Assembly (NCBI GenBank): GCA_022824945.1
Contig: JAJDYX010000022.1
Location: forward strand, 1-64,000
Source: Candidatus Latescibacterota bacterium
Lineage (GTDB): Bacteria; Latescibacterota; UBA2968
Reading direction: 5' to 3'
Length of the DNA stretch: 64,000 bases
The notes below the pieces were generated by a model that searched no databases, was not told the DNA's origin, and worked only from the letters and a program-made list of their open reading frames with translations. The position numbers were made by a program, and so were the translations under genes. This document shows, in pieces, positions 14,010 to 18,200 of the stretch (position 1 is its first letter; every line of letters starts with the position of its first letter).

Positions 14010-14077
14010 AGATGTGTCCTGTCACCTCTTTACCCTTGACAGCCCGAATGTGGTTGGCTACCTTTCCGTTCCGCAAG

Positions 14078-14262
14078 GGTAGAGGCGCGAGCGATCATCA
14101 GTATGCGGCGCAGGAGGCGAAACGGAGTACTGCTCCACTGTGCCAACAAAAAGGGATCGTTCGCCGAAGTCCTGGCCTGTTTCGCCACAGGGCAGGGCTG
14201 GTTCAGTGGATAATATCTGCTGAACTGTCACGGGAAAAGTTTCCGTGGAGAGCTCTCTTGTT
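14078..14262 (+). promoter_or_regulatory. Lysine riboswitch (L box) controlling dapA
   Basis: The leader matches the lysine-riboswitch consensus in order. The 5' side of P1 and the core is AGAGGCGCGAG (14081-14091), followed by a CAGTATG turn (~14098). Next come GGAGGCGAAAC (~14112), GCCGAAGT (~14163) and CTGTCACGGGAAA…CCGTGGAGAGCTCTC (two runs), which closes P1 near 14259. This RNA binds L-lysine and switches off lysine-synthesis genes. Its target, dapA, starts 95 bp downstream, and a T-run terminator lies between them. The boundaries are approximate. It explains why the long open frame through here is not part of dapA. Confidence 0.9.
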
Positions 14263-14284
14263 CGCGAGATTTTCTGCTGCGTTT

Positions 14285-14327
14285 AGCGTCTGGCGATCGA
14301 TACCCTTGAGAAGCCGGCGCTTTTTTT
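14285..14327 (+). terminator. Intrinsic terminator of the lysine riboswitch expression platform
   Basis: AGCGTCTGGC (14285-14294) pairs with GCCGGCGCT (14313-14321) with one bulged T and one G·T pair. Seven T follow immediately (14321-14327). It lies between the aptamer and the dapA ribosome site, as expected for lysine-induced premature termination. Confidence 0.75.
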
Positions 14328-14356
14328 ATCGCAAAGTGCAGAAACTGGAGGTTTTT

Positions 14357-15385
14357 ATGTTGCAAGGATGTCATACGGCCTTAATCACACCCCTGACTGC
14401 CAACCATGCCCTGGACCAGGATGGTCTGGAAAAACTGGTGGCATTTCAGATTTCTGAAGGGATTGATGGCCTTTTGGCCTGCGGCACGACGGCTGAGAGT
14501 CCAACCCTGAGCAATGATGAACAAAGCTTGATTACACGCGTAGTGTGCAGCCAGGCCCGAGAGCAGTGCCGCGCCATTGGAGGAGCTGGCAGCAACTCCA
14601 CGGCAAAAACCTTAAAAGCAGCCGAATACGCCGCGCAAGTGGGTGCGGACGCCATCCTGCTCGTCGATCCCTATTACAACGGACCGAGTTCTCTGGAAAT
14701 TCGCAAAGAATACGTCGAACCCGTGGCCCGTGCATTTCCCGAATTGGACATGATCCCCTATGTCATACCCGGTCGGTCCGGCACGAAATTGCTCCCCGAA
14801 GACCTCGGTATCTTGTTTTCCGAATACAAAAATGTGAACACTGTGAAAGAGGCCACAGGCGATCTGGGCAACATGGCGCGCACCCGCGAATGTTGCGGAG
14901 ATGCGTTTTCGATCATGTCCGGTGACGACGACAAAACTTATGACATGATGACCAGTGACCAGATTGACGCCGCGGGTGTAATCAGTGTGATTTCCAATGT
15001 GGCACCTGGTCCTGTGACAAAAATGGTACATGCCCTTCAAAGCGGAGACATGGACGAAGCAGACCGCCTGCACGCTGCACTGAAACCCTTATTTGGTATG
15101 GTCGGCGTTGTGTCCGAAGAACAAACACCTTATGGCGCGACAGAAGTCAAGGCGCGCAACCCATTGCCGGTAAAAACCCTGATGAATATTTTGGGCATGC
15201 CGGCTGGGCCGTGTCGCCAGCCATTGGGAAAAATGAACCGCGCTGGACTGGATATCGTGCTGGAAATTGCCCGCGAAGTACAGGCCAATAACCCGGAGGT
15301 ATTTGCACCCGTAGCATCATTCTTTGGTACAGACGTAGCGCAACGCTTGAACGATGATACGGTACTGGAAGGACTGGTGTATTGA
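14357..15385 (+). CDS. dapA: 4-hydroxy-tetrahydrodipicolinate synthase
   Basis: This enzyme condenses pyruvate with aspartate semialdehyde at the first committed step to diaminopimelate and lysine. The catalytic set is visible: 'GTTAES' at 43-48, Tyr135 in 'IPYVIPGR', and Schiff-base Lys164 in 'NTVKEATGD'. At 342 residues it is some 50 longer than usual, mainly through a C-terminal extension, so a related pyruvate-dependent aldolase is possible. The lysine riboswitch upstream and dapB downstream support the DapA call. The ATG at 14357 has GGAG eight bases upstream; an open frame extends 345 bp further upstream but only through the riboswitch. Confidence 0.9.
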   Translation: MLQGCHTALITPLTANHALDQDGLEKLVAFQISEGIDGLLACGTTAESPTLSNDEQSLITRVVCSQAREQCRAIGGAGSNSTAKTLKAAEYAAQVGADAILLVDPYYNGPSSLEIRKEYVEPVARAFPELDMIPYVIPGRSGTKLLPEDLGILFSEYKNVNTVKEATGDLGNMARTRECCGDAFSIMSGDDDKTYDMMTSDQIDAAGVISVISNVAPGPVTKMVHALQSGDMDEADRLHAALKPLFGMVGVVSEEQTPYGATEVKARNPLPVKTLMNILGMPAGPCRQPLGKMNRAGLDIVLEIAREVQANNPEVFAPVASFFGTDVAQRLNDDTVLEGLVY

Positions 15386-16292: not shown

Positions 16293-18200
16293 ATGAATGT
16301 TGATGTGCAGGCGGCATTTGATGCCGGACAAACCCTTGCTGTGGCAGACCGGATTTTAATTTCACCGCAAGCGGGGTCTTTGCAAAGCCGCGTAGATAAA
16401 CTCTTAGATGCAATTGAGAATAGCGGGGCCTCTGGCGATTTAATTTGCAAAACATTGATTCAGTTGGGTATGAATTTTGTTGGACGCGATGCCGAGATTG
16501 TTGGATATGACGCTGATGAAATAGATGTAGCACTCGACAGCGTGTTGGACACGCTCGATAATCTGGAAGGCGATCACGCGACAAGTGTTGTAAATGGCCT
16601 TTTGTCCGACATGAAATCCGTGAACCTATCCGATAGTCTTTCGGGATTATTAGCCGAGCGAATTGAGTCAAATCTGAATGAGGGCAATCCCGCCCGGTCA
16701 TTTCTGGAATTGCTCAAAACCAATATGCGCGGCGGTGTGTACTGGCAGATGATCGGTGAAAATATCTGTAAATTTGGCAATGACTTTGCGCGCGGTCTGG
16801 AGTACTTGCGACACTACGGCTTTTGTCAGGTCTCCACAAATCCGGTATTGGCTGCCAAAGCATTTGACGAAGACCCCTCGCTGGACGATGAACTCAAAGC
16901 CGAAATCGCCAGGCACAACGAGTGGAAAGCCGATCCCGAAAAATATGCCGATGACATTGTAATGGCTGCCACACTGATTGCGCTGTGGCCCAATCTTTCA
17001 ATCTTTCGGCCTCTGGCGATGCACACAGACCTGAAAGACTACATGGTGAGTTTTCAACTCAATCCCAATATCGCTGATCAGGCCGATGCCAGCATCGAAG
17101 ATGCGCGCAACGCATATCGCATTGCCGATGACTATTTGAAGGGATATGACAAGTTATTGGGCGTCAGCGATATAACCCTGGATCCCAATATCGTATTCAA
17201 GGTCGGTGGTGGACACGAAGCAGCGCGAAAAATTACGACCGTGCTCAACAGTGAAGGCATTGGCACAAATAACACAGTCGTTTACACAGTGGCACAGGAA
17301 GTGCAACTCGTCATCGATGCCTTTGAAGGCAAAGCCAGAGCTGCACAAGCCGGCAAGCAAGTGGTGAGAACTTATGAAACGAATATGGGTGGACGGTTTG
17401 TAAGCCATTTGCGCGAGGTAGAAGCCGAAAAGTTATTCGGCGCATTATCAGAAGATCGCGCCTGTGAATTGCTCGCCGAACTCGCTTCTGATCTGGAAAT
17501 CGATATACCCGAAGGGACATTGGCCGAACAAGTGGTAGAAATATGTTCTTATGCCCACCTGAAATCCCTGGATCATCCCGTAATCTTAAACGTTGCCGAA
17601 GCAGCCGGTCAGTCTTCAGAAGCAATAGTGCAACTCGAAGCCGATCTAAAAAAAGCGGGGACGGTTATTGCACGGCGCGTACATTGGATTTTCTACGCGC
17701 CTGAAAATCGGCCCAAATGGGCTACCTACTTGTCAGACACCTACGGTTTGTCAGAAGATCAGTCACAGTGGATTTTGGCTTCAATGGACGTGTTGCCCGC
17801 GTCCAAACGCGTCCCCGATGACACGCTTCACGCACTGGGCGCAAACATGTGCCATACAGAATTTCCCAACCATCAACGCGCCGTTCAACTCGTGTCAGAA
17901 GCACCCAATTTTGACCTGGGTGAACTCAGGGAATCAATCGGCCAAGAATACGAACCCGGTGTGACACAGCGACTTTACGAATTACCCGATTTTCAGAAGG
18001 GCTACGATCTGACGCCCTCTCTAAAGGATTTTCTCGAGAACGAAGTTCAAATTGATCTGAGCGGCTGGCAAACGCGGGGCATGGAACCCGGCGACTGGCC
18101 CGAATTCGGATCGGTTCAAAAAACCACCACTGAGTTTAAAGCCGCGTATGACGCATTTCTAGTGCGATGCATTGAACTGGCCAAAGAAGTTGCTGGATAA
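16293..18200 (+). CDS. Transaldolase-like protein, long divergent form
   Basis: The 635-residue product has a transaldolase-type core in residues ~165-365. 'GFCQVSTNPVLAAKAF' resembles the family's S-N-P strand, and 'NIVFKVGGGHEAARKI' carries Lys303 where the Schiff-base lysine is expected. 'EGIGTNNTVVYTVAQEVQLV' matches the following helix-strand. The ~165 residues before and ~270 after the core are not recognised. The usual enzyme is 220-380 residues. It starts 51 bp after dapB with AGGAGG upstream and may be in that operon. A role in sugar-phosphate metabolism is inferred; the flanking regions could change the reaction completely. Confidence 0.65.
   Translation: MNVDVQAAFDAGQTLAVADRILISPQAGSLQSRVDKLLDAIENSGASGDLICKTLIQLGMNFVGRDAEIVGYDADEIDVALDSVLDTLDNLEGDHATSVVNGLLSDMKSVNLSDSLSGLLAERIESNLNEGNPARSFLELLKTNMRGGVYWQMIGENICKFGNDFARGLEYLRHYGFCQVSTNPVLAAKAFDEDPSLDDELKAEIARHNEWKADPEKYADDIVMAATLIALWPNLSIFRPLAMHTDLKDYMVSFQLNPNIADQADASIEDARNAYRIADDYLKGYDKLLGVSDITLDPNIVFKVGGGHEAARKITTVLNSEGIGTNNTVVYTVAQEVQLVIDAFEGKARAAQAGKQVVRTYETNMGGRFVSHLREVEAEKLFGALSEDRACELLAELASDLEIDIPEGTLAEQVVEICSYAHLKSLDHPVILNVAEAAGQSSEAIVQLEADLKKAGTVIARRVHWIFYAPENRPKWATYLSDTYGLSEDQSQWILASMDVLPASKRVPDDTLHALGANMCHTEFPNHQRAVQLVSEAPNFDLGELRESIGQEYEPGVTQRLYELPDFQKGYDLTPSLKDFLENEVQIDLSGWQTRGMEPGDWPEFGSVQKTTTEFKAAYDAFLVRCIELAKEVAG

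Follow-up and report, generated by a model that had tools for sequence, protein, structure and literature searches.

The leader upstream of dapA-dapB in the window analysed here, a 64-kb (64,000 nucleotides) stretch of a contig from an uncultured Latescibacterota bacterium, is confirmed by its sequence and structure as a genuine member of the lysine riboswitch family. It probably acts (a probability of roughly 80%) as a lysine-sensing OFF switch on dapA-dapB transcription, in which the 5' strand of aptamer helix P1 is captured by the loop of the terminator. The class of riboswitch is known and the regulated genes are usual for it, while the variant of the expression platform is apparently new.

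Aptamer and associated genes

The sole Rfam match in the window is to RF00168 at 14072-14263 (+). It covers 182/182 model positions and scores 90.5 bits, three times the gathering cut-off of 30 (E 1.7e-22). The first-pass annotation, which had proposed a lysine riboswitch with its conserved blocks in place, is thereby upheld: AGAGG, AGUA, GCCGAAG, CUGG, GAUAAxAUC, CUGUCA and GUGGAG occur in the window and are nearly invariant across the 43 leaders found in the phylum. Only its start at 14078 has to be corrected, as this omits the first bases of P1; the 5' boundary of the aptamer lies at 14072-14074, and in P1 14074-14079 pairs with 14255-14260 (Table 1).

It is barely credible that the aptamer is degenerate or specific for a ligand other than lysine. 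The best Bacillota members score higher (up to 142 bits), and lysine binding is predicted from the sequence, but the match is full-length and far above the cut-off, the core is conserved in all 43 leaders, and the copies are invariably found upstream of dapA or asd.

Table 1. Features of the dapA-dapB leader and the genes behind it (window coordinates).
Feature	Position	Strand	Evidence or remark
Predicted promoter: TTGACA (14036-14041), 17-nt spacer, TACCTT (14059-14064)	14036..14064	+	TTGAC(A/G/C) in 43 leaders; promoter kept in G008
Lysine riboswitch aptamer (RF00168), five-helix core	14072..14263	+	Full-length 90.5-bit match; conserved core in 43 leaders
P1 5' strand and first core bases, CAAGGGUA	14074..14081	+	Proposed switching strand; partner 14255-14260 (aptamer) or 14301-14308 (antiterminator)
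P1 3' strand, CUCUUG	14255..14260	+	No significant downstream complement (20 representative leaders)
Terminator 5' arm, GCGUCUGGC	14286..14294	+	Compensatory changes across relatives
Terminator loop segment, UACCCUUG	14301..14308	+	Proposed antiterminator 3' strand; 8 consecutive Watson-Crick pairs with 14074-14081
Terminator 3' arm (14313-14320) and U7 tract (14321-14327)	14313..14327	+	Hairpin and T run in 43/43 leaders
Shine-Dalgarno sequence, GGAGG	14347..14351	+	Sequence; 5 nt upstream of the dapA start
dapA, 4-hydroxy-tetrahydrodipicolinate synthase, 342 aa	14357..15385	+	TIGR00674, Pfam DHDPS; DapA enzymes as best PDB relatives
dapB, 4-hydroxy-tetrahydrodipicolinate reductase, 268 aa	15435..16241	+	TIGR00036, 279.7 bits (cut-off 122)

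The dapA product scores 208.4 bits against TIGR00674, narrowly above the cut-off of 206.15. Its homology to relatives and PDB structures begins at residue 1, and together with the ribosome-binding site this bears out the previously assigned start, the ATG at 14357. The longest mechanical open reading frame, which starts at 14012 and runs through the riboswitch, was rejected, since both homology and the leader point to 14357. Behind it, dapB is the second gene of what is presumed to be an operon. Named records with a 94-96% identical dapA are nearly all Latescibacterota metagenome-assembled genomes; one is labelled Gemmatimonadota. A Latescibacterota-like dapA (57% identical) lacking a lysine riboswitch was also seen on a contig binned as Bathyarchaeota (L051, JAGGUU010000179.1), which is probably misbinned. 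Downstream of dapB, a 635-aa open reading frame (16293-18200, +) shows a weak match to a transaldolase domain (TAL_FSA, residues 170-338); no family match was obtained for the rest of this frame.

Distribution in Latescibacterota

The genome of the window carries a second and stronger RF00168 match (108.8 bits) upstream of asd, so that both of its matches precede genes of the lysine pathway. All 22 genomes of three families in the class contain one or two copies, 42 in total, and one further copy was found elsewhere in the phylum (G047). Every one of these 43 copies is located upstream of dapA or asd. In a fourth, sister family (f4), RF00168 was not found in 25 genomes; this family does have dapA orthologues, with 53-61% identity in all but one of the 25 (e.g. 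L124-L127). The asd riboswitch L014 (G020:C39:70613-70791) has UGAGG for AGAGG, a weak antiterminator match and about 390 nt to the asd start, and may be decaying.

According to a survey from 2017, which did not list Latescibacterota, lysine riboswitches are relatively uncommon beyond Firmicutes and Gammaproteobacteria (PMC5584792). This makes the earlier remark that the switch is not often described in this lineage a fair one. In this phylum, lysine riboswitches can now be given a predicted role in controlling dapA and asd.

Promoter and terminator

A TTGAC(A/G/C) motif lies at about the same distance 5' of the aptamer in 43/43 leaders, with a T-rich, -10-like box approximately 17 nt further on. 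From the position of this predicted promoter, transcription should begin no more than a few bases from the P1 5' strand, and the transcript start is expected at about 14070-14072. A consensus scan of the window leader called neither promoter nor terminator. The former was missed because of its weak -10 box and the latter because its 18-nt loop exceeds the limit of the scan, which has been superseded by the comparative evidence.

A natural deletion bears on the promoter as well. In the congener G008 (one contig, 99% complete), dapA is 88% identical and has no riboswitch upstream. Its leader (L123, G008:C1:3247600-3248300, strand -) keeps TTGACA-17-TACCTT, with the dapA ATG following within about 50 bases. 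Residual riboswitch sequence was sought upstream of the dapA genes of G008 and four sister-family genomes and was not found. The cassette of aptamer and terminator appears to have been lost cleanly from the G008 leader in nature while the promoter was retained, which lends support to the promoter as well as to the proposed limits of the cassette. Presumably, dapA is no longer lysine-regulated in G008, where a riboswitch is still present at asd.

The terminator hairpin of the window (14286-14294 with 14313-14320) has one bulge and an 18-nt loop and, taken in isolation, is no more stable than shuffled sequence (z -0.5). It is nevertheless accepted as an intrinsic terminator on comparative grounds. 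A hairpin followed by a T run occurs in 43/43 leaders. Among the asd leaders, four of the eight terminator pairs have changed on both sides with pairing kept, and likewise four of eight among the dapA leaders. P1 and the terminator are 98% paired in the asd leaders, a value that falls to 38-58% once the partners are slid by 1-3 columns. The earlier proposal of an intrinsic terminator between aptamer and dapA, drawn as a T-run hairpin at 14285-14327, therefore stands, with the hairpin at 14286-14320, the U run at 14321-14327 and compensatory changes across relatives.

Complementarity of the P1 5' strand to the terminator loop

The alternative antiterminator pairing, which the first-pass annotation had suggested looking for, was found between 14074-14081 and 14301-14308. 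The P1 5' segment CAAGGGUA is exactly complementary to UACCCUUG in the terminator loop (p 0.01 for the window leader). The asd leader of the same genome offers the pairing AGAGUAGAGGC / GCUUCUACUCU, and the asd leader of G011 offers GGGUAGAGGC / GCCUCUACCC. In other genera, the complementary segment sits in the upper terminator hairpin and often spans the AGAGG core too. A strong match is absent from some leaders, namely G020 asd, G011 dapA and G014 dapA.

Complementarity was assessed in 20 genus-level representative leaders, using a fixed query of 12 nt and dinucleotide-shuffled controls. This design replaced an earlier duplex test, whose long 5' fragment had given noisy results on the dapA leaders. 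For the P1 5' strand, 13 of the 20 leaders are individually significant (p <0.05), and the Fisher combined p of about 3e-15 is overstated because the leaders are related by shared ancestry. The P1 3' strand gives no representative below 0.05 (0/20) and a combined p of 0.99 in the identical test. In 68 control leaders from Bacillota, the only control phylum in this comparison, the result is reversed, with p 0.42 for the 5' strand and p 0.002 for the 3' strand. It is this contrast under one shared test, and not the absolute p values, that carries weight.

Fold ensembles computed just before completion of the terminator agree with this picture. In 95% of the Latescibacterota leaders the P1 5' strand has a downstream partner, compared with 45% when the platforms are shuffled, which is the level that GC-rich composition yields by itself, and with 4% of the Bacillota leaders. 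Three Bacillota leaders (L098, L114 and L119) score above 0.5, so the 5'-strand design may occur sporadically outside Latescibacterota. Almost none of the Bacillota lysine switches in the comparison appears to have such P1 5'-strand pairing.

These data also bear on a more conventional arrangement, in which antitermination would proceed through pairing of the P1 3' strand with downstream sequence or a terminator arm, and the 5' match would be incidental. The 3' strand is the switching strand in the well-studied yxjA riboswitch (PMC9756952), it shows excess complementarity in the Bacillota leaders, and it is paired downstream in 28% of the Latescibacterota fold ensembles. That figure is, however, below the shuffled value of 34%, the 20 representatives show no excess complementarity of this strand, and the signal of the 5' strand is strong and covarying. 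Antitermination through the 3' strand is accordingly considered unlikely, and the helix between the P1 5' strand and the terminator loop is the likely antiterminator.

Covariation and predicted energies

At aptamer position 7, which belongs to the P1 5' strand, 11 asd leaders have G and 10 have A. The partner of this position in P1 is U in all of them, so that P1 is satisfied by either G-U or A-U, while the loop base opposite it is C in the G leaders and U in the A leaders. The loop has co-changed in genus g1, where G008 has G and C, and separately in G014. At position 9, the pairs U-A, U-G, C-G (G047) and G-C (G019) occur, and G047 has GGCAG/CUGCC in place of GGUAG/CUACC. As far as sequence comparison goes, the changes at both positions are explained by the antiterminator helix and not by P1. 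The covariation is given as specific substitutions rather than as a formal count on the MAFFT alignment, since the loop is displaced by one column from genus to genus, and adjusting the alignment to fit the pairing would make the argument circular. That the antiterminator shares a strand with the aptamer is thus backed by both statistics and covariation; its exclusion of the terminator we infer.

Nearest-neighbour folding, which omits the tertiary contacts of the aptamer and lysine, predicts -106.7 kcal/mol for the antiterminator against -98.6 kcal/mol for the P1 state with the transcript at 14312, and -110.4 against -105.2 kcal/mol for P1 plus terminator at 14330. The corresponding predictions for the asd leader of the same genome are -96.6 against -87.6 and then -97.2 against -96.2 kcal/mol. 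After completion of the terminator, the advantage of the antiterminator is thus 5 kcal/mol in the dapA leader and 1 kcal/mol in the asd leader, a difference that lysine binding and the tertiary contacts of the aptamer would have to make up. On this model, a strand-exchange OFF switch is consistent with the energies predicted as the transcript grows.

In the window leader the antiterminator engages the terminator loop, so the terminator stem could be excluded only by steric or topological means. Pairing could also extend onto the 5' arm (14083-14088 with 14286-14291), though at a cost in energy in the model. Involvement of the loop and not an arm also makes a loop kiss topologically possible, with the terminator still able to form and the main control exerted elsewhere, for example on translation. 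We regard this as distinctly unlikely: the loop segment emerges before the terminator 3' arm, every leader keeps the hairpin and T run, and the anatomy can be explained without sequestration of the ribosome-binding site.

Proposed mechanism

In the preferred reading, capture of the P1 5' strand by the terminator loop, transcription would begin at the P1 5' strand. With lysine bound, P1 would stay closed, the terminator (14286-14320 and U7) would form, and RNA polymerase would halt before dapA. When lysine is scarce, the loop segment, emerging ahead of the terminator 3' arm, would invade P1 and capture its 5' strand, so opening P1. The terminator would then be blocked and dapA-dapB transcribed.

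On balance, the comparison of leaders favours a phylum-wide design, at both dapA and asd, in which the 5' end of the transcript (the P1 5' strand, often with the AGAGG core) would be captured by the terminator loop and so act as the switching strand. The invader would compete directly with the lysine-bound fold, and the design would be distinct from a platform built on the P1 3' strand. One aptamer class would then be wired differently, in a recognisable form conserved throughout a phylum, and natural covariation together with the natural deletion in G008 provides built-in tests of it.

Comparison with known systems

Alignments of riboswitches in Rfam mostly omit the expression platform, and the relay from aptamer to platform is still poorly understood (PMC10907184). 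The accessible literature yielded no description of P1 5'-strand antitermination in a lysine riboswitch; as many subscription papers, founding ones included, lie outside this scope, the novelty of the wiring is probable rather than proven.

The closest relative by gene content is the L box (RF00168) of Clostridiales, where lysine riboswitches are recorded ahead of dapA-dapB operons (Table 1 of PMC5584792). The aptamer family and the regulated operon are shared. The phylum is a different one, and in Latescibacterota it is the P1 5' strand, not the 3' strand, that carries the downstream complementarity. With the lysC riboswitch of Bacillus subtilis, the present leader has in common the aptamer, the intrinsic terminator and the expected OFF logic. 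By its published description, however, lysC draws the 3' strand of its antiterminator from the terminator stem (PMC5836843), whereas in Latescibacterota this strand would be the terminator loop, with the P1 5' strand as its partner. The purine riboswitch of B. subtilis yxjA resembles the proposed mechanism in exchanging strands with P1 during transcription, but it senses guanine and its competing helix uses the P1 3' strand (PMC9756952).
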